Virus record (IMG/VR): IMGVR_UViG_3300046167_000793
Location: 1-34,460 of that record
DNA from: a virus
Direction: 5' to 3' (one strand)
Length of the DNA: 34,460 nt
Shown here piece by piece: positions 1-34,460 of the stretch. The translations under genes and the position numbers were made by a program. Each line of letters begins with the position of its first letter. The stretch's first letter is position 1. Under the pieces are notes generated by a model. The model was not told the DNA's origin, searched no databases, and saw only the letters and a program-made list of their open reading frames with translations.

Positions 1-1055
1 GAATTATATTCATTAAATATATTTTTACTTTCTTGACTAACAAATATATCATATTCTTTTAATAATGAAATTCCAGCATTTACACTTCCTTGACCTTTTA
101 TACAAGGTTTAATTAATATTCCATCTCGTTTAATTTGTTCAATTGACTTTGGCTCTGCTGCATCAGCATAACATAACACATTTTCATAACCATCATTTTT
201 TAAAAAGTCAGCTATTTCTCCATTTGTTAATCCTTTGCTATATAATAATTCGTGAACATAAATTTTATCGTTTTTTAAAAATAATAATACAATAGCTGTT
301 TGATGATTTGAAAATCCAAAGTCCATTCCTATAATACCCTCTGCATCTGTATCAAATTCTGGAAATTCGCTATGTGGTATAAAAGTCCAATTATTATAAA
401 TTTGTCTTGCACTAAATATTGCTTTCTGTCCTTCTCCATATACTCGCCAATAATCTGGGTCTCGTTCTCTCATTCTTTCTATTTCAAATACTAATTCTTT
501 TGATAAAAATTTATTGTCTTGATATGTTGTTATCCAAGTATCACAATCATCACGAACAATTAAATCGCTATATAACCAATGCACTGGGTCCGACGGATTA
601 AAATCTACAATGACAGAATCTATTGTTCTTAGATTTATTTGCCTAAAATCTTCTAATGTTAATTCATTCGCTTCATTTAAAAAAGCTATATTTCTTTTTC
701 TACCTCTAATTTTTTGTGGTTCATCTACGGAAAGAAATTCTATCAAATGGTCATTATATGTAAATGTATTTGCAGCTTTATTATGTATTCCTAAATAATA
801 AATTCCAGTTTGTTGTAATATTATTAATATATCACGAAGCACTGAACCTTTAAGCGCTGGAAGTGTCTTTCTGATTATGGAAATAACTAAAGGCTTTTTA
901 GATGTTGTAATTAAATATACTATGTATTGACAGACTGCGACTGTTTTTCCACTTCTTGTTCCTCCTTGGTGGACTTTAAATCTTTTGTCGCTTCCAATGA
1001 GGTCGTAGAATTGTCTATTGCATTGCTGTTCAATTCTTGTTCTGCTGGTTTCCAT
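1..1055 (-). CDS. terL: Terminase large subunit, N-terminal 351 codons (gene continues at 34460)
   Basis: ATPase-nuclease motor that packages DNA through the portal. My translation starts at ATG 1055 and stays open to base 1. It continues in the same frame at 34460 and stops at 34328, giving 395 aa, a normal length for PBSX/Terminase_3-type TerL. Visible motifs: Walker A GGTRSGKT (residues 31-38), Walker B IAFLNE (123-128), NPSDPVHWLY (154-163), nuclease Asp in GMDFGFSN (D245) and the second acidic motif ADAAEPK (D298). The start codon lies inside terS; the Walker A motif itself falls in the overlap, so a start downstream of terS is impossible. Very sure of the family. Confidence 0.96.
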   Translation of the reverse strand, partial: METSRTRIEQQCNRQFYDLIGSDKRFKVHQGGTRSGKTVAVCQYIVYLITTSKKPLVISIIRKTLPALKGSVLRDILIILQQTGIYYLGIHNKAANTFTYNDHLIEFLSVDEPQKIRGRKRNIAFLNEANELTLEDFRQINLRTIDSVIVDFNPSDPVHWLYSDLIVRDDCDTWITTYQDNKFLSKELVFEIERMRERDPDYWRVYGEGQKAIFSARQIYNNWTFIPHSEFPEFDTDAEGIIGMDFGFSNHQTAIVLLFLKNDKIYVHELLYSKGLTNGEIADFLKNDGYENVLCYADAAEPKSIEQIKRDGILIKPCIKGQGSVNAGISLLKEYDIFVSQESKNIFNEYN

Positions 1056-1387
1056 TCTATTAAAGTTGATTTGATTGTTCCATCATGCTGAATTTCTTGT
1101 CTTTCTATATAACCACGTTTTTTTCCTTTTGTCTTTAAATAAAAAATAGTTGCTGGTGTATTACCATTTTGTATTTGTTTATGTAATTGAGATTCTGCAA
1201 AATCTAATGCAATATTTTCTATTTCTTTTACTTTGTTTGCAAAGTCATTATCATCTTTTAAATATTGATAAAATGTAGTCCTACCTATTCCAACTTGTTT
1301 ACAAGCAGTTGTCACAATTCCTAAAGATTTCTCTAAAGAATCAATTAAAGCCTTTTTTATATGTTCGGTTTTGTTCGCTTTTGCCAT
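920..1387 (-). CDS. terS: Terminase small subunit (HTH DNA-binding)
   Basis: Predicted to recognise phage DNA and hand it to TerL. The N-terminal half carries a helix-turn-helix (about residues 24-45, ACKQVGIGRTTFYQYLKDD). It is followed by the stretch GNTPATIFYLKTKGKKRGY (75-93) that is common in phage HTH-type small terminases. The last 40 residues are low-complexity Ser/Thr/Glu/Lys and overlap terL by 136 nt in another frame, which probably explains their odd composition. A terminator and a TAnnTTTG box sit directly before the ATG, so a new transcript seems to begin here and run into terL and portal. 155 aa is usual for the family. Confidence 0.85.
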   Translation of the reverse strand: MAKANKTEHIKKALIDSLEKSLGIVTTACKQVGIGRTTFYQYLKDDNDFANKVKEIENIALDFAESQLHKQIQNGNTPATIFYLKTKGKKRGYIERQEIQHDGTIKSTLIEWKPAEQELNSNAIDNSTTSLEATKDLKSTKEEQEVEKQSQSVNT

Positions 1388-2538: not shown

Positions 2539-3615
2539 TTATATAATAAATTCCCAATTAGTTGTTAGTCTTTTTTCAGACCCACTATTTAATTTATTAT
2601 TAGCAGATTTAGTTCTACCACCCATTGTTCTACCATGACTTTTTAATCTCCAATCATTTGATTTTTTAAAAAAATGGATTAATGATGGTGCTGATGTAGT
2701 TATAGAAAATCTATAATTATTTTCTATATAATATTTTCCAATAAATTCTAATAACATAATTCCAAATCCAATTCCTTGAAAATCTGGTAATATTACAAGT
2801 CTATGAACTTTTTTCATATTCTTTAATCTTTGATGTGGAAAATGCAAAATAGAAATAAAACCTGCTAATTGATTATTTACATAAGCAACATAAGTATGTG
2901 CTGCATTATGATGAGTATGACTTAAATAATGGTGCTTAGCAAAAGCTTTCCAGATTGTTTTATCTTTTGTAGCGAGTATTTGTAAATCAACTTTTGGTCT
3001 ATTTTTTTTTTGCTTCTCTAAATTTAGAAAAGTCATAGTATCTGTATTAAATATCCAATCTGGCATTAACCAATCTTCTACATCAAAATGACAGCTGACT
3101 GCTATAAATTGTTTCTTGGTTCTGCGAACACTTTTTTGAACCGCGTATGAACCAATCTGAGCAATTTTTCTATCTACCACAGAAGTAAACTCATCAAATA
3201 CGATTAATTTATTATTATTTAATAAAGCATTAGCTAAATCAACCCTCATTTTTTGACCATTGCTTAATACACTATAACTCTTTAACCAACTTGGTGGAGA
3301 AGAAAAACCTACTGCATTAAATGTTTTTACAATTTCATCAATTGATTTATCTTTTGGCATATCATCTAATATAGATTCAGCTTTATATTTAAAGTTTGTT
3401 ATATATGATTTTGGAAATAATTCTTTTGCAATAGTAGTTTTTCCTGTACCACTTGCACCAACAATTAAACCCACTTGCCATTTTTTTGGTAATTCTATAT
3501 TACCAACAAATATTTCTTCTATTTTATTAGAATTTAAATCAAATTTACCCATTACCGAAGCTACACGAAAACTTTCAGATGGTTTTGATTTTTTTACAAT
3601 GTTAAAACTCGGCAT
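2539..3615 (-). CDS. ABC-type ATPase fused to GNAT acyltransferase domain
   Basis: 358 aa two-domain protein. Residues about 35-200 are an ABC ATPase: Walker A GASGTGKT (53-60), signature LSNGQ (117-121), Walker B LIVFDEFTS (137-145) and switch His (SCHFD, H176). No transmembrane segment is seen, so it is not an ordinary transporter. Residues about 205-358 are a GNAT fold with the acyl-CoA loop Q280-G-I-G283-F-G285 after VHRLVILPD. It overlaps the upstream ParB-domain gene by 22 nt, so the two are made together. GNAT enzymes acylate proteins or small molecules; phage Mu Mom is a GNAT-like DNA modifier. A nucleic-acid or protein modification role is inferred, not shown. Confidence 0.85.
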   Translation of the reverse strand: MPSFNIVKKSKPSESFRVASVMGKFDLNSNKIEEIFVGNIELPKKWQVGLIVGASGTGKTTIAKELFPKSYITNFKYKAESILDDMPKDKSIDEIVKTFNAVGFSSPPSWLKSYSVLSNGQKMRVDLANALLNNNKLIVFDEFTSVVDRKIAQIGSYAVQKSVRRTKKQFIAVSCHFDVEDWLMPDWIFNTDTMTFLNLEKQKKNRPKVDLQILATKDKTIWKAFAKHHYLSHTHHNAAHTYVAYVNNQLAGFISILHFPHQRLKNMKKVHRLVILPDFQGIGFGIMLLEFIGKYYIENNYRFSITTSAPSLIHFFKKSNDWRLKSHGRTMGGRTKSANNKLNSGSEKRLTTNWEFII

Positions 3616-4106
3616 TTATATCCTCTTTTACTTAACTCCTCAAATAATTGTTCTTGTTCATCTTCGGACTTAACTGTTATTTCTATTTTTAAATCTGCAA
3701 TTAATGCTTCTGATAAATCTTCAATTTCATCTGCACCAGTCGAAACATTTAGACCCCAGTTAGCTAATTCCTCAAAGCTATATTCATTGCCTAATATATC
3801 CCAATCCCATTCTCCAAAACCAACATTATCTTTTATAATAAATTCTCTTTTTTGTTTTTCTGACCAATCAGTAACTTGGTCAACCCAAACTTTTTTTAAT
3901 CCAGCTTCTTTACAAGCTTTTAATCTCATATTTCCTCCCAATATTATATTTTTTTCATCTATAATAATTGGTCTTTTTTCTAACATTTCTGGAAAAGCTT
4001 TAATTGACTTAACTAATTTTTCAAAAGCTTTTTTATTTATAAATCTTGGATTAGATTCATTTTCAAATATGGATTCTATTTTTACTTGTTTTTTATTCTG
4101 AATCAT
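3594..4106 (-). CDS. ParB/sulfiredoxin-domain protein
   Basis: 170 aa. The N-terminal ParB/Srx domain has the hallmark ILGGNMRLKACKEAGL (residues 55-70) preceded by RPIIIDEKN. This fold can bind DNA, hydrolyse nucleotides or act as a nuclease. The C-terminal part (about 110-170) is acidic, then ends in a typical phage ParB tail with a ferredoxin-like feel (EDEQEQLFEELSKRGYKCRV). There is no partner ParA and no parS-like site visible, so plasmid-type partition is unlikely. The gene is coupled by overlap to the ABC-GNAT gene, which points to a joint activity. Confidence 0.8.
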   Translation of the reverse strand: MIQNKKQVKIESIFENESNPRFINKKAFEKLVKSIKAFPEMLEKRPIIIDEKNIILGGNMRLKACKEAGLKKVWVDQVTDWSEKQKREFIIKDNVGFGEWDWDILGNEYSFEELANWGLNVSTGADEIEDLSEALIADLKIEITVKSEDEQEQLFEELSKRGYKCRVLTL

Positions 4107-4279: not shown

Positions 4280-5953
4280 TTAAAATGGAATATTATCTTT
4301 AATGACTTCAAATCTTTGAATATCTTTATCTATCTCTTTATATACACCGCCATTTGCGAAATCTGGTGCTACCATAAAATCTCCTTGTTTTCCATTTTCT
4401 TTTCTTTTAACTTTTTGAACATATATTTGTACACTATCAGAATTAAATTTAGTTTTTTGACCTAAATTTCTATAAACTGTAACACAATTAAAAGCTTTAT
4501 TAAAAAAATCGCTGGATTGAGAAATATCATATGGAGTTGGAACTCTATATTTACCCTCTATGCTTTCCATTTTTCTTGGGTGTGCAACTAATATTAAGTG
4601 TGTATTTGTTTGCTGACAAAATTGAGTTATTTCAGATAATAATTTTCCAACATAAGTAAAATCTCTTTGTGATGAATGGTCTAACATATTCCAAGGGTCA
4701 ATCACACATATTTGAACTCCTTTTTGAAAAACTAATTGCCTAAAAGCATCTAGTATTCCCTTTAATGTTAAATTTTCTAAATCAATTTTTACAAAATTAA
4801 AATGTTCAATTATAAAATCTTTAGATTGATTTAATAAATCATTATTACAATTTGTTTCATTTAATTTATTTGCAATTCTTTTTATATGACCCTCGTATGG
4901 ATAACTCTCTGGACTAAACATTGCTATTCTAAAATTTTCGTGGACTGCCAAATTAATACATAGCTGGTCGATAACATCGGATTTTCCCGCATTTGGAATC
5001 CCTGTAAATACTGACCATTCTCCAAAGCTAATGTTATAATATTCTTTGCTGTCTCCAAGTCGCACATCATAATTTGTGATTCCATTTTCGTTATAATTTA
5101 AAACACTTTCCCAAATATCGTTTAAATTTAGAACTCCTTCAATTGGAAAACTTTTAGCAGTATCAATAACTTCTCTTAAAGCACTTGGTCCTTTATTAAT
5201 TAAAATTTCATTAGCATCTTTATATTCTCCAAAATCAACATATTTACATCTTCCTTGTCCAAATCGCCTTGCTAATTCATTTCTTAAATTCAAACCGGCT
5301 TCATCATTATCACAACATAATATAATTTGTTTTTTATCTTCAAAATATTTATAACAATTATCTAAATATTCCAATCTTTGATTACCAACATTTGCTCCAT
5401 TTGGAACAGAACAAACAGAAAATATTCCAGCTTCAAATAAACTCATTGCATCCATTTCTCCCTCGGTTATATATATAGTGTCCATTTCAACTATATTATC
5501 TATTCCATAAAATATTAATTCTGCATCTTTATATAATTTAAAATTCTTTTTTCCATCTCTATATTTTATATTAACCAATTCTTTATTACGATAATAATTG
5601 AAATTAATAGCAGTTCTTGTTTCTTTTACTTGTGGAAAATATGTTTTACTTTCTGTAATTTTCCAATTTATAATAGTAGTTTCTGAAATTGCTCTTTTTT
5701 TAAACCAATTAATTGTTCTTTCTGATAATTTAGATTTAGCTATAATTGGTTTAACATATTCTTTTTTTTGTGTCAAACTAACATTTCCAGACCAATTACA
5801 ATGATGACAATGATACAATCCTTTTTCAACATTAACCGATAAACATTTTTGAGTTTTCTTTTTTCTTTTATGACTACACTTTGGACAAGTCAATTGAGTT
5901 TCGCCATTTCTTGAGCCAATATTAATTCCAATATCTTGAAATTTTTCTTTCAT
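4280..5953 (-). CDS. DNA primase-helicase (zinc finger, TOPRIM, RecA-type helicase)
   Basis: 557 aa, the T7 gp4/Twinkle-like layout in one chain. A zinc finger is formed by C23, C26, C49 and C52. The TOPRIM domain has YITEGEMDAM (E165, E167) and CCDNDEAG (D215, D217). The RecA-like helicase has Walker A GIPNAGKS (318-325) and Walker B-like ICVIDPWNM. It would unwind duplex DNA and lay primers at the phage fork. With no phage DNA polymerase in the window, it must work with the host replicase. It sits in the middle of the early operon with an early-type promoter element upstream. Confidence 0.93.
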   Translation of the reverse strand: MKEKFQDIGINIGSRNGETQLTCPKCSHKRKKKTQKCLSVNVEKGLYHCHHCNWSGNVSLTQKKEYVKPIIAKSKLSERTINWFKKRAISETTIINWKITESKTYFPQVKETRTAINFNYYRNKELVNIKYRDGKKNFKLYKDAELIFYGIDNIVEMDTIYITEGEMDAMSLFEAGIFSVCSVPNGANVGNQRLEYLDNCYKYFEDKKQIILCCDNDEAGLNLRNELARRFGQGRCKYVDFGEYKDANEILINKGPSALREVIDTAKSFPIEGVLNLNDIWESVLNYNENGITNYDVRLGDSKEYYNISFGEWSVFTGIPNAGKSDVIDQLCINLAVHENFRIAMFSPESYPYEGHIKRIANKLNETNCNNDLLNQSKDFIIEHFNFVKIDLENLTLKGILDAFRQLVFQKGVQICVIDPWNMLDHSSQRDFTYVGKLLSEITQFCQQTNTHLILVAHPRKMESIEGKYRVPTPYDISQSSDFFNKAFNCVTVYRNLGQKTKFNSDSVQIYVQKVKRKENGKQGDFMVAPDFANGGVYKEIDKDIQRFEVIKDNIPF

Positions 5954-12648: not shown

Positions 12649-13263
12649 TTAATCAAATTTTGCACTAGCACAATTACGGCAAATCGTATTATAAGAATTT
12701 ACAATTTTATTTATATGGTTTGCCTTTCCCCAAAAATCGGATAATTTTTCTTTGCTTAAATCTCCCACAACAATTTCCATATCATAATCATTACAACATA
12801 AAAAAGCTTGACCGATTGCATTAATATGAATCCATCCAATAGGTCTGCCGCCAACTTCACGACCATTTCCACAACTTGTTACTTGTTTATTTTCGTTTTG
12901 TTGTAAAAATTTATTTATAGCTTTTTTATTATCAATTTTATCTTCTAACAATCCTGCTCGGTCAATTAAATGAGTCATACCATAAATATTCATACCAGGA
13001 AACATAGCACGACCAACATTGACTTCCAATTTATTTTCTCCTTGTTCTGGTCTTAAATCAATATCATCTGGAAAATCTTTTCCTGGTTCAATCCAACCCC
13101 CATTTTCAAATAATGAATATGTATTTATACCATTCATGCCAATACTAATAGAACCATTTGCAATTCTTTCAGGAAACAAATCATAAACATATTTAATATT
13201 TCTAATCAAATTTTTATACATTCCCTCTTTCATTCCAGTTCTTTTTGCCCCAAATTTCTGCAT
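12649..13263 (-). CDS. Radical SAM/SPASM enzyme, C-terminal fragment (frameshifted)
   Basis: 204 aa frame holding the C-terminal half of the enzyme begun at 13690. The SPASM-like domain has WIHINAIGQAFLCCNDYDME (C156, C157), GDLSKEKLSDFW, and the final C195-x2-C198 for an auxiliary iron-sulfur cluster; C131 may also ligate. The apparent ATG at 13263 is internal to the domain, so this is not an independent gene. It reads in +1 relative to the upstream fragment. Removing one A in the A5 run at 13242-13246 restores a continuous protein of about 347 aa. Confidence 0.75.
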   Translation of the reverse strand: MQKFGAKRTGMKEGMYKNLIRNIKYVYDLFPERIANGSISIGMNGINTYSLFENGGWIEPGKDFPDDIDLRPEQGENKLEVNVGRAMFPGMNIYGMTHLIDRAGLLEDKIDNKKAINKFLQQNENKQVTSCGNGREVGGRPIGWIHINAIGQAFLCCNDYDMEIVVGDLSKEKLSDFWGKANHINKIVNSYNTICRNCASAKFD

Positions 13264-13690
13264 TAGTTAATATTGGAACATTAAAATTTAAACCACTAAT
13301 TACTGAATCATATTTTTTTAGTAAATCTGCTTTTTTAGGCGTTAAAGGAGTTCCATTTGTCAATATCATAGTCATTAGTCCATTTTGTTTTAAAGTGGCT
13401 AAGAACTCCTCTAAATGAGGATAAAGCAATGTTTCATTATAATGACTTGTATAAAATCCATTAAATGTTTTAGCAACTAATCCATCTTTTTTTTCTCTTT
13501 CCTCTAAAATATTATCTAAAATTCTTTTTAATAAGTCAATTGGCATCGGTTTCATAGCGTGTTTTGGATTACCTTTTGTTGATACAGGACAAAACCAACA
13601 GGAAGCATTACATAATCCGTTGGGGTCTAATTGCATTTGACTTATTTTATGTTTTTGAAAATCAGCTATTATTTTATCCTTTATATTCAT
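13214..13690 (-). CDS. Radical SAM enzyme, N-terminal fragment (frameshifted)
   Basis: 158 aa fragment with the catalytic cluster motif C27-N-A-S-C31-W-F-C34 after QMQLDPNG, typical of SPASM-type radical SAM enzymes that modify peptides or proteins. TMILTNGTPLT and YDSVISGLNFNV fit the TIM-barrel strands. The frame breaks after LTNAEIWGK and ends with an aberrant tail. The rest of the enzyme is at 12649-13263 in the +1 frame. The start overlaps the glycosyltransferase gene by 17 nt, so both are co-translated. The break could be a sequence error, a true mutation or recoding. Confidence 0.78.
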   Translation of the reverse strand: MNIKDKIIADFQKHKISQMQLDPNGLCNASCWFCPVSTKGNPKHAMKPMPIDLLKRILDNILEEREKKDGLVAKTFNGFYTSHYNETLLYPHLEEFLATLKQNGLMTMILTNGTPLTPKKADLLKKYDSVISGLNFNVPILTNAEIWGKKNWNERGNV

Positions 13691-14597
13691 ATAATGCTTT
13701 TTTTACTATTTCATAATAATTGAATGATGCTTTTTGTTTGTTAAATTCTAAATAATTTGGTGGTAGCATATCAACATATTTTCCTTTGTTAAATAAATCT
13801 GTGTTTGCACCTGTAACTCCAGCATTATGAAATATTGGTTTTATATCCCACATTTGAATTCCATCTACAGCAAACATAAAATCTAATTCTCTTATAATTT
13901 CAGTTTTTTTACCTATTTTCCATAATCCCCATAAAACTGCCCACATATCAGCACACCATATTTGTAATTCGTGATATGATGGATTAAGACCTTTAATTCG
14001 TTTATTCATTATTGAAATATTTTTGAATAAATTTATTGAATCTGTTTCAACCATTTCCCAAAATTCATAAGTTATATTTTTTAGTATATATTGAGCACCA
14101 CCAGAATTATTTTGATTTTTTTTTACAATTTCTTTATTAATATTCATTATCTGACACATTCTATTTAAAACATTTTCTCCTTTTTCCATTATATAATCAT
14201 AACCAATATAGCTTCTAGTATCACTTAAATAACACGTTGGATTACAACCACATAAATATTTATCTATTTCTAATGGTTTTGTTAAAACTATATCACAATC
14301 GTGATACATAAAAGTGCCAGTATATAAATTTGGGTATTTTTTGAAATGTTGTTTTAAAACATGAGGTCTAATGCTTGATATATATGTAAAATCTGTTCTT
14401 GTATCATTATAAAAATAGAAATTTACATTAGGATATTTTTCTTCTAATTTATAAAAATAATTATCAATTTTATTTTGAATAGCACAAACAATATCTATTT
14501 GAGATTGTTCAATTCCATTATGTATAAAATTATAAATTAATGTATCAATTTGCCAAGCATAATATAAAGTAGCTGGTTGGGCACATAAATATCTCAT
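13674..14597 (-). CDS. Glycosyltransferase-like protein (GT-A fold, DxD)
   Basis: 307 aa. It has a GT-A-like nucleotide-sugar layout with the metal-binding motif HDCDIVL (D100-x-D102) following TGTFMY. Later come QNNSGGAQYI and the C-terminal GIQMWDIKPIFHNAG, where the His is typical of GT metal or acceptor sites. It lies between the polythreonine tail gene and a radical SAM gene and overlaps the latter by 17 nt. The most attractive substrate is the adjacent Thr-rich tail protein, but a host or DNA substrate cannot be excluded. No signal peptide, so it acts in the cytoplasm during assembly. Confidence 0.7.
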   Translation of the reverse strand: MRYLCAQPATLYYAWQIDTLIYNFIHNGIEQSQIDIVCAIQNKIDNYFYKLEEKYPNVNFYFYNDTRTDFTYISSIRPHVLKQHFKKYPNLYTGTFMYHDCDIVLTKPLEIDKYLCGCNPTCYLSDTRSYIGYDYIMEKGENVLNRMCQIMNINKEIVKKNQNNSGGAQYILKNITYEFWEMVETDSINLFKNISIMNKRIKGLNPSYHELQIWCADMWAVLWGLWKIGKKTEIIRELDFMFAVDGIQMWDIKPIFHNAGVTGANTDLFNKGKYVDMLPPNYLEFNKQKASFNYYEIVKKALYEYKG

Positions 14598-14617: not shown

Positions 14618-17272
14618 TTAAGGACAAGATGGACAAGTTGCAGATGTTAAAGTTGTTCCACTCCAATAATAATATGTTTGACCATCTTCTGTCATATATT
14701 GAGCAGATAAAAGTGATGTACAAGCGCTTGATGTATAAAGCGCAGTTGCTGTAGATAATTGGCTACTATTAGCATAAACATTTCTAACTCTATCAGAAGT
14801 ACAACAAGCATCAACTGCTGAAGTAGATGATAAATAAACACTAATTGCAACACATTGTGCTTGTGTCGTGGTTGTAGTGGTTGTAGTTGTCGTGGTTGCT
14901 GCAGCATTACAATTTGTACAATTTGCAAATCTGTCTCCAGCAGGTATCGTAGAAATACTTCCGTTTTGTCCTTGACCACCATTTTGAACAAAATTAAAAC
15001 ATTCATCAATACCATTTATTTGTTTCCTAATGGTTTGTGGAAAGCTATTTGATGTATTACTATAATATAAAACTTGTCCTTGTGGGTCTGAACATTCAAC
15101 ATACAATGCATAATAAATTGCTGCTGTTGTTGTTGTCGTAGTAGTCGTGGTTGTAGTAGAAGTTGTTGTTTCTCCAACACAATTATTACAAGTTGAATAT
15201 TGAGGATATAATCTATCTCCGTTACTATCAGTTTGGTCAATCCATAAATTACTAGTTACACTTGTAACTGATGGATTAAACCAACATTCTCCGTTTGTAT
15301 CTTCAACCACAGTAGGAAATCTATCTTGATTATTTCCAAAATATTTTGTTGCATCATTACCTCCTGTAGCACAATCTACATATCTTCTAAAATATGTTAA
15401 TGTTGGTTGTGTTGTAGTTGTGGTAGTTGCAGCGGTTGTTGTTGTTGCACAAGTTTGTGTAACAGTTGGATATGGAGATGGGTCTAATAAAGTTGCTGTT
15501 CCACCAATAGTATAACAATTAGTTCCATCATTACTAACATAAACTTGGTCTCCAATACCAAAGCTATTATTAATTTGAGCATAAGTTACAAATCCATCTG
15601 AATTTCTTTCTACAACAAATGAATTTGCAGCTTGTGTTGTAGTCGTAGTGGTGGTCGTTGTGGAAGTTGTTGTTGTTGTTGTTGTGGTTGCACAAAGACC
15701 TGTTACTGTTGGCAAACTTCCTGGATTTGCAGCAATTTGTTCAGCTGTTATTAAAAAACAAGCTGTTCCGGTATCACTTTTTGTTACTGTATCTCCAACA
15801 TTAAAACTTGCACTAATTTGAGTTAATGCTGGAAGTCCTGTAAATACTTCAGTCATTAAAAAAGAATTATTATTTTGACAAGCTTGAGTAATTGTTGGAT
15901 ATGATGCAGCATTTGCTAAATAAGTTGATGAAGCTATCGTATAACAAGTAGTTCCACCACCTGAAATTTCTACTGTATTTCCAACAGAATAATTTAAATC
16001 AATTTGAACATATTGACTAGTACCATTCGGATTTGATAATAACCAAACATTTGGCGCTAAAGTAGTTGTTGTGGTTGTGGTTGTTGATGTTGTTCCTGAA
16101 CACGCGCTTCCAGCAACACATTCAACAGTATCTCCAATTGTTGTACCATATAAATTTGTAGCAAAAGCAGTACAATAATAAGTTTGTCCTTGAATTAATG
16201 TTGGACTTATTTTAGTATGTACACCTGTTGAAGTAATTGAAGCAGAACTAATTTTTGTATTATTTAAATAACTTGTTGCATCTGTTCCGATATACCAACC
16301 AGCATCAGTTAATGCCGCTTGACCTAAACTCGTAATATTAAGTGACATAGTCATTGTAGTATTACTAGCAAAAACTAAATCATTTGTTACTACAGTTGGT
16401 AATCCAAATAAAGTTGTTGTTGTTGTAATTGGAATAACTCTAGTATCATAATTATTTGAATTTGACATCACATACCAAGACCCATTTGATTGGAATATTC
16501 TAGAATTACAAACATTTAAAATATCAATTAATAAATCTTTGGAATTTCTTCTAACTAAATCTTTATAGGTTGCAAATTCAAATACATTTATATCGTGAAA
16601 TATAGAATTTGATGTTAATGCAGTATTTGATTCAATTAAATTTTGTATATAAATATCAAATCCTAATTCAAGATTATCTAATATTTTTCTGATATAATAA
16701 AAAAATGAATTATAATTGTTTTGTCCACCAGTGGTTGTTATTGGATTTCCATTTCCATCTAAAGCAATTTGTCCTTCAGGTGCATCATAAGAATCTAAAG
16801 TTCCAAGACCATCAGTAGCATTTAAAGATAAATTATAAGGTGTTGAAACTATTTGTTCTCTAAATTGGTCAGTAACTAACCAACCCTCCCAATAAATATT
16901 GAAATCCCCAGATTCTGCCCAAGCAAAATTAGCATCATCAAAATTATCATTTTCTGTTTGCCATTCTGAATCTGTTCCAACAGTATCAGTGGTTTGTCCA
17001 TCTAAAATTCTAAGTTTATATTCTCGTTCATCAAAAACATAAAATTCATCATACGTTATTGTATCTGTTACAACTAAATTTAAAGTACAAGCACTTCCTA
17101 TAATAGGATTATAAAAATCATCATCATTTTCCCAACTTATTTGAACAGGATTATCTGTTCCAATTAATTCTAATACAGCGCCAAAATAATCTTTTTTCAA
17201 GATTTGCACAACACGACCATTTCCTTTTACATCGGAAAATTGTAATTCATATTTGACTCTGTAAATTGCCAC
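14618..17272 (-). CDS. Large tail-tip/adhesin protein with polythreonine linkers and Cys-rich modules
   Basis: 884 aa. Residues 1-275 look like the structural tail-hub part (MAIYRVKYELQFSDVKGNG). About 285-390 is a FN3-like module (GQTYYCTAFATNLYGT). After that, runs of Thr (near 393-404, 527-547, 608-620, 700-716, 790-801) separate Cys-rich modules: three of type A (VQIDLNYSVG, ISASFNVGDTV, AQINNSFGIGDQV, each ending in a Cys) and three of type B (RRYVDCATGG, ALYVECSDPQ, AISVYLSSTS, ending CNNC, CTNC, CPSC). It follows the tape measure by 2 nt. Likely a receptor-binding protein; the linkers may be glycosylated. Confidence 0.8.
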   Translation of the reverse strand: MAIYRVKYELQFSDVKGNGRVVQILKKDYFGAVLELIGTDNPVQISWENDDDFYNPIIGSACTLNLVVTDTITYDEFYVFDEREYKLRILDGQTTDTVGTDSEWQTENDNFDDANFAWAESGDFNIYWEGWLVTDQFREQIVSTPYNLSLNATDGLGTLDSYDAPEGQIALDGNGNPITTTGGQNNYNSFFYYIRKILDNLELGFDIYIQNLIESNTALTSNSIFHDINVFEFATYKDLVRRNSKDLLIDILNVCNSRIFQSNGSWYVMSNSNNYDTRVIPITTTTTLFGLPTVVTNDLVFASNTTMTMSLNITSLGQAALTDAGWYIGTDATSYLNNTKISSASITSTGVHTKISPTLIQGQTYYCTAFATNLYGTTIGDTVECVAGSACSGTTSTTTTTTTTLAPNVWLLSNPNGTSQYVQIDLNYSVGNTVEISGGGTTCYTIASSTYLANAASYPTITQACQNNNSFLMTEVFTGLPALTQISASFNVGDTVTKSDTGTACFLITAEQIAANPGSLPTVTGLCATTTTTTTTSTTTTTTTTTQAANSFVVERNSDGFVTYAQINNSFGIGDQVYVSNDGTNCYTIGGTATLLDPSPYPTVTQTCATTTTAATTTTTTQPTLTYFRRYVDCATGGNDATKYFGNNQDRFPTVVEDTNGECWFNPSVTSVTSNLWIDQTDSNGDRLYPQYSTCNNCVGETTTSTTTTTTTTTTTAAIYYALYVECSDPQGQVLYYSNTSNSFPQTIRKQINGIDECFNFVQNGGQGQNGSISTIPAGDRFANCTNCNAAATTTTTTTTTTTQAQCVAISVYLSSTSAVDACCTSDRVRNVYANSSQLSTATALYTSSACTSLLSAQYMTEDGQTYYYWSGTTLTSATCPSCP
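14868..16095 (-). repeat. Five (ACN)n polythreonine-coding tracts
   Basis: Threonine-codon tracts at about 14868-14901, 15123-15170, 15411-15446, 15632-15690 and 16061-16095 separate the modules of the tail protein; a shorter one is near 16420. Codons mix ACA, ACT, ACC and ACG, so the amino acid rather than the DNA repeat is conserved. The tracts still give homology for module shuffling. Confidence 0.85.
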
Positions 17273-34327: not shown

Positions 34328-34460
34328 TTAAATTACAAAAAACTTTTGGCGCTTTCCAAAGTGAGAATAAACTCCATATCTTATAGCATCCATTAAGTGG
34401 TCTGAAAGCATTTTTGGTTTGTTAATTATAGTTCCATCTTTTAATTGTTCCCAATAATAA
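34328..34460 (-). CDS. terL: Terminase large subunit, C-terminal part (joined to 1055-1)
   Basis: The last 43 full codons and stop of TerL. The codon TCT is split between base 1 and base 34460. The peptide reads YYWEQLKDGTIINKPK then SDHLMDAIRYGVYSHFG, where the Asp (D372 or D376 of 395) is the conserved last nuclease metal ligand in the DAhRYG ending of terminases. The stop is TAA at 34328-34330. The exact in-frame join shows that the window ends are adjacent in the real molecule. Confidence 0.95.
   Translation of the reverse strand, partial: YYWEQLKDGTIINKPKMLSDHLMDAIRYGVYSHFGKRQKFFVI

Follow-up and report, generated by a model that had tools for sequence, protein, structure and literature searches.

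What is the substrate of a phage gene pair that couples a ParB-like protein to a fusion of ABC ATPase and GNAT acyltransferase? We address this question with the 34,460-nucleotide stretch of IMG/VR record IMGVR_UViG_3300046167_000793 (hereafter, the window), in which all features given below lie on the minus strand. As the first-pass annotation of the window had proposed, a gene for a ParB-fold protein and a gene for an ABC-GNAT protein are present and overlap. The upstream gene (3594..4106) encodes a ParB/Srx-fold partner protein of 170 aa, and the downstream gene (2539..3615) encodes an ABC ATPase-GNAT fusion of 358 aa. The overlap is 22 nt (3594..3615). In addition, the sequence AGAGGAT within the ParB gene (3620..3626) resembles a Shine-Dalgarno site and probably serves the ABC-GNAT gene.

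The cassette is flanked upstream by a primase/helicase gene (4280..5953; phrog_239, E 6e-84). The gene of the small terminase subunit (920..1387; phrog_309, E 3e-11) is located downstream, and this order is shared by relatives. The small terminase gene is separated from the cassette by an ORF for an LPD29-domain protein (1455-1814), LPD29 being a polyvalent-protein domain, and a 126-aa ORF of no clear family (2102-2482). The large terminase gene is divided between the two ends of the window (1-918 and about 34330-34460). Therefore, the record appears to be circularly permuted and near-complete, with its cut inside the large terminase gene. In the structural region, what appears by eye to be a radical-SAM-like gene (CNASCWFCP) is spread over a pair of ORFs that overlap and differ in frame (12649-14597), adjoining a possible glycosyltransferase-like ORF. 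An ORF of 884 aa (14618-17272) contains several polythreonine runs that resemble low-complexity linkers of tail proteins. No ParA is recognised in the ORF lists of the window, where the profile search covered only part of the genes.

The ABC-GNAT protein matches ABC_tran (E 4e-10) and Acetyltransf_1 (E 7e-8) of Pfam, both past the cut-off. A single full-length PHROG family, phrog_11143, covers residues 6-356 with the ABC domain preceding the GNAT domain (E 8e-94). The AF2 model of the fusion has a pLDDT of 90.5 and a pTM of 0.84. In a fold search of the PDB, this model matches ABC ATPase domains, which account for most of the top 50, and the GNAT 2ae6. The best curated match of the ABC domain is ABC-F-like, at a score far below its cut-off. 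Aligned motifs of the ABC domain include Walker A (GASGTGKTT, residues 53-61, with G53-ASGTGK59-TT; 3433..3459), the signature (LSNGQ, residues 117-121, with L117-S118-N-G120-Q; 3253..3267), Walker B (KLIVFDE, residues 136-142, with D141-E142; 3190..3210), the D-loop (S145-V-V-D148), and the switch residue H176. The GNAT domain, as delimited by Pfam and the AF2 model, spans about residues 205-330 (2626..3003) and carries the acyl-CoA-binding loop QGIGFG (residues 280-285, Q280-G281-x-G283-x-G285; 2761..2778). In an alignment of 89 diverse ABC-GNAT homologues, the motif residues are mostly invariant or more than 90% conserved, bearing out the earlier statement that the ATPase and acyl-CoA motifs are intact.

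The fused architecture had also been called unusual, which does not hold. The fusion constitutes a widespread phage family, phrog_11143, for which IMG/VR contains at least 595 relatives. A further 468 ABC-GNAT relatives are found in bacterial and archaeal genomes; many of these copies are probably located in prophages, because terminase and portal-type genes neighbour many of those examined. The query is answered by 63 phage records, the last few of which match the ABC part only. Cultured carriers include Lactococcus phage P335, Leptospira phages LE3 and LE4, Gordonia phages NHagos and Jace, Nonlabens phage P12024S, and Pseudomonas phage Komp_PAO1_1. A search across genomes with phrog_11143 is unspecific, as it matches all 14 control genomes. 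In Tenacibaculum phage pT24 (L085, 3857-5029), the ABC-GNAT is annotated as two genes, and a stop or frameshift cuts the GNAT.

The prediction that ABC ATPase-coupled GNATs acylate DNA bases reportedly stems from Iyer et al. (2013, NAR 41:7635). Section 3.4.7 of a 2021 review of jumbo phages likewise predicts that an ABC ATPase-coupled GNAT, QAX98348.1, modifies a DNA base with an acyl group, in a reaction that is uncharacterised (PMC7824862). This protein aligns with the window protein as a member of the full-length family, with 36.6% identity. The review assigns the accession to pT24; it is that of Aeromonas phage AsFcp_2 (H23/L094). Since a protein of the same family has already been so predicted, the idea of DNA acylation is not new. 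The window cassette is thus a member of a widespread family that is predicted to acylate DNA.

The partner protein matches ParB_N of Pfam with an E value of 1.4e-4, which is under the curated cut-off, and ParB/methylase families of PHROG with E values of 1e-22 to 1e-26. In Foldseek searches, the model of the protein resembles ParB, Noc, and sulfiredoxin (Srx). The ParB domain proper comprises residues 5-123 (3738..4094). It keeps the P-motif GxxR (GGNMR), in which G58 and R61 are conserved; a residue of the R61 kind is required for binding in other members (PMC12704722). The partner is modelled with the ParB/Srx (ParB-CTPase) fold and is predicted to bind NTP. Comparison with known defence systems yields partial matches only (mad3, over 70 residues, and a model for a type II methylase, whose match falls on the ParB domain), and assignment to such a system is rejected.

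Conservation in the partner is concentrated in the last ~40 residues, and the ParB domain itself is variable. In this C-terminal module (residues 128-170; 3597..3725), residues E148, Q151, G162, C165, and R166 are nearly invariant. The model of the window ParB contains the helix of the module and has no paired strands. Stand-alone versions of the module form a family of their own, phrog_28816, which matches the C-terminus of the window ParB weakly (E 0.34).

Does the ABC-GNAT gene travel with its partner, as the first-pass annotation had asked? A partner gene is located upstream in 221 of 239 relatives that have a readable start, and is absent in 18; this set is not a random sample, because its members were ranked by how closely they match the window or a window-based alignment. 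Four relatives in the set have the C-terminal module alone, with no ParB domain. The pairs occur across Bacteroidota, Pseudomonadota, Planctomycetota, Chloroflexota, Bacillota, and Bathyarchaeota. Of the 221 pairs, 181 share an overlap of exactly 22 nt, including all 141 pairs from viral contigs, 35 of 67 from genomes, and 5 of 13 from phage records. Among the subset of neighbour clusters that were annotated, the conserved neighbours of ABC-GNAT relatives are the ParB/module partner and phage late genes. The reverse search, with the window ParB as the query, agrees with this picture. Among its 80 nearest ParB relatives, 36 have both the C-terminal module and an ABC-GNAT, two have the module without an ABC-GNAT, and none has an ABC-GNAT without the module; the remainder comprises 41 with neither and one that is cut short. 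The pairing of the ParB/module partner with ABC-GNAT is near-obligate.

At least eight of the module-less ParBs among the 80 nearest are fusions with an N6/N4 DNA methylase, and the six that were scanned match PF01555 with E values of 1e-13 to 1e-28. The methylase-fused ParB domains are 64-67% identical to that of the window, whereas the ABC-GNAT-linked ParBs are 57-62% identical for three other close ones and lower for distant ones. The fusions hold the same pre-terminase slot, with the terminase genes in the same order. Independent work describes fusions of phage ParB folds with N6_N4 methylases (PMC12704722), and a phage ParB fold adjoins the DNA carboxymethyltransferase CmoX (PMC12783734). 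In locus L440, the ParB gene is followed immediately by a Mom homologue (phrog_1384, E 4.5e-50) and then by terminase. A ParB-like gene is likewise paired with Mom in Microbacterium phage Appa, so that the ParB–Mom pairing is known from two loci only. In Appa (L279, 1969-3121), the ParB-like gp46 overlaps the Mom-like gp47 by 8 nt, and the C-terminus of gp46 is a CxxC segment in place of the C-terminal module. In a phylogeny of 156 ParB domains, which is built on few columns and has much of its topology unresolved, the ABC-GNAT label changes nine times, and at least five of the changes are forced by well supported branches.

The ParB domain has other company as well. ParBs very close to that of the window, with a short zinc ribbon (CELCGK) at their end and no enzyme domain, occupy the same pre-terminase slot (L417, L433, L437, and others), and ParB is combined with DUF4417 in other phages. 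Therefore, linkage to ParB alone is no proof of a DNA enzyme. The annotated 'DNA modification methylase' of Streptococcus phage Javan576 (L280, 2983-4071) was considered as a ParB-methylase and rejected, as it consists of ParB and DUF4417; its label seems to derive from the ParB part.

The Mu-like branch of the family provides a second kind of context. A search seeded by a Pseudomonas member defines 80 loci of this branch. The C-terminal module is a stand-alone ORF in all 80, and its overlap is nearly always 4 nt. Two reference phages of the branch are transposable and Mu-like, with genes for transposase, a MuB-like protein, and Gam. In both, the trio of module, ABC-GNAT, and formyltransferase follows the tail genes, at the position of com-mom in Mu. 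The stand-alone upstream ORF was considered as a homologue of Com; this finds no support, and the ORF corresponds to the C-terminal module of the ParB partner (phrog_28816).

Is the GNAT domain itself a Mom? A solved structure of Mom, a methylcarbamoylase, is available (8bv8). Comparison of the GNAT with Mom profiles in hhalign gives probabilities of 1.5-18% and E values of 0.035-0.0014, with no significant overall match. The sole aligned stretch sets H229-Y230, part of a motif H229-Y230-L231 ahead of the second GNAT strand (2923..2931), on H58-Y59 of the Mom HYS (p 0.0014). With no Mom match in the window and no significant hhalign result, membership of the GNAT in the Mom family (phrog_1384) is rejected. 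The GNAT may work like Mom, judging from the aligned motif, and is not placed in the Mom family.

The same context bears on the most serious competing reading, in which the GNAT would acylate a protein of the host, such as RNA polymerase, as has been proposed for other phage GNATs, with the ABC domain in a regulatory role and ParB targeting the enzyme or autoregulating. Host proteins are the presumed targets of many phage GNATs (Rac, in the discussion of phage GNATs in PMC7824862). Moreover, the CoA loop of the window protein is typical of GNATs, and its PDB match 2ae6 is a generic GNAT. However, DNA methylases and, in one locus, Mom replace ABC-GNAT as the companion of the ParB domain at the same slot, and the cassette sits ahead of terminase or, in Mu-like phages, in the place of mom. 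We consider a host-protein substrate rather unlikely.

The formyltransferase gene lies directly downstream of ABC-GNAT in 56 of the 80 Mu-like-branch loci, and the remainder are mostly contig ends. Its product matches Formyl_trans_N of Pfam and has about 200 aa. A formyltransferase is also located 3' of ABC-GNAT in Gordonia phages, and it adjoins ABC-GNAT, by coordinates, in two gut phages. No formyltransferase gene is found in the window phage. In Gordonia phage Jace (L090), an aspartate decarboxylase gene (5101-5526) is located directly 3' of ABC-GNAT; the enzyme makes beta-alanine and would therefore serve CoA synthesis.

Among solved structures, the phage formyltransferase matches the N-terminal domain of 10-formyl-THF dehydrogenase with an E value of 1e-40 and Met-tRNA formyltransferase with one of 5e-27. 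The former domain passes formyl to a phosphopantetheine thiol (PMC8748788). Its catalytic triad is His106-Ser108-Asp142, and HypX is proposed to form formyl-CoA likewise (PMC6802093). In the phage formyltransferases, His96, Ser98, and Asp132 are invariant and spaced as in that triad. Because a triad of this kind moves formyl to a thiol, we propose that formyl-CoA may feed the GNAT. Tentatively, the ABC-GNAT would then be the catalytic half of the system, the 40-residue adaptor its constant part, and ParB an optional targeting head; in Mu-like, Gordonia, and some gut phages, the formyltransferase would produce formyl-CoA, with which the GNAT would formylate a DNA base. This scheme is possible and speculative. 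To our knowledge, no phage is known to mark its DNA enzymatically with formyl on a base.

A neighbouring formyltransferase is also reminiscent of Met-tRNA formylation, and could be read as a sign that the GNAT acylates (aminoacyl-)tRNA or ribosomes with the help of an ABC-F-like ATPase. ABC-F-like is indeed the best curated match, though a distant one by its cut-off, and aminoacyl-tRNA is acetylated by GNAT toxins. However, the phage formyltransferase is nearer to 10-formyl-THF dehydrogenase than to Met-tRNA formyltransferase and is short, the window protein has a single ABC domain, unlike ABC-F, and its ParB partner is exchanged with DNA methylases, which together make an RNA or translation target very improbable. 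Just as improbable is a packaging or replication accessory, in which ParB and the ABC ATPase would clamp DNA for terminase while the GNAT merely regulates, because, although the cassette is directly ahead of terminase in the window and most relatives, Mu-like and T4-like phages place it away from terminase, DNA methylases take the same terminase-proximal slot, and the catalytic and CoA motifs of the GNAT are conserved.

We therefore favour, with a probability of about two in three, the reading that the cassette is an ATP-driven, ParB-targeted DNA acylation module, Mom-like in action, that counters restriction. The first-pass annotation had suggested sequence-guided acylation of DNA, with Mom as an example, or of a host protein; the near-obligate pairing, the exchange with methylases and Mom, and the mom position favour DNA, whereas a relation of the GNAT to Mom by sequence is not supported. 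In a plausible mechanism, the ParB-fold domain, whose fold is of the NTP-binding clamp type, would bring the module onto DNA, and the C-terminal ~40-residue module would dock on or activate the ABC-GNAT protein. ATP-dependent dimerisation of ABC domains might then drive a DNA-remodelling or base-exposing step. With acyl-CoA as the donor, the GNAT would acylate an exocyclic base amine, most probably the N6 of adenine, which is also the position modified by Mom, and the acylated phage DNA would withstand host nucleases. In the Mu-like branch, the proposed donor is formyl-CoA from the neighbouring formyltransferase. DNA as the substrate is what we infer from gene context and motifs.

Prediction of DNA-base acylation by the ABC-GNAT family has been standing since 2013. 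Our analysis adds context evidence for a DNA substrate, namely the swap with DNA-methylase domains and the mom position, and describes a new variant that carries a formyltransferase. It also names the likely minimal parts: the adaptor module and ABC-GNAT, plus ParB or formyltransferase depending on lineage. If true, the proposal would widen phage DNA hypermodification by a class that is driven by ATP, possibly with formyl-CoA as a donor. Compared with the present analysis, the jumbo phage review is silent on ParB, and its section 3.4.7 mentions neither the 40-residue module nor the formyltransferase (PMC7824862).

Several known systems resemble the cassette in part. Mom of Mu shares with ABC-GNAT the placement of the HY motif and the genome position in Mu-like phages; both adjoin a ParB domain of the window kind, and the proposed chemistry on DNA is of the acyl-transferase type. 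However, Mom has no ABC domain, the QxxGxG CoA loop is missing from it in the alignment, and its partner Com in Mu differs from the C-terminal module. The phage ParB-N6_N4 methyltransferase fusions (PF02195+PF01555) share a near-identical ParB domain and the same genomic slot with the window, but carry a SAM methylase in one polypeptide with ParB, whereas the window has a separate, coupled ABC-GNAT gene for an acyl-CoA enzyme. The N-terminal domains of 10-formyltetrahydrofolate dehydrogenase (2bw0, 4qpd) and HypX share the His-Ser-Asp triad with the phage formyltransferase, which stands alone beside the GNAT and lacks the carrier and dehydrogenase domains of 10-formyl-THF dehydrogenase. Finally, DpdA and DpdB of the Dpd system likewise pair a ParB-like NTPase with a base-modifying enzyme (PMC12839542), but DpdA is a transglycosylase, and ABC and GNAT domains are absent from that system.
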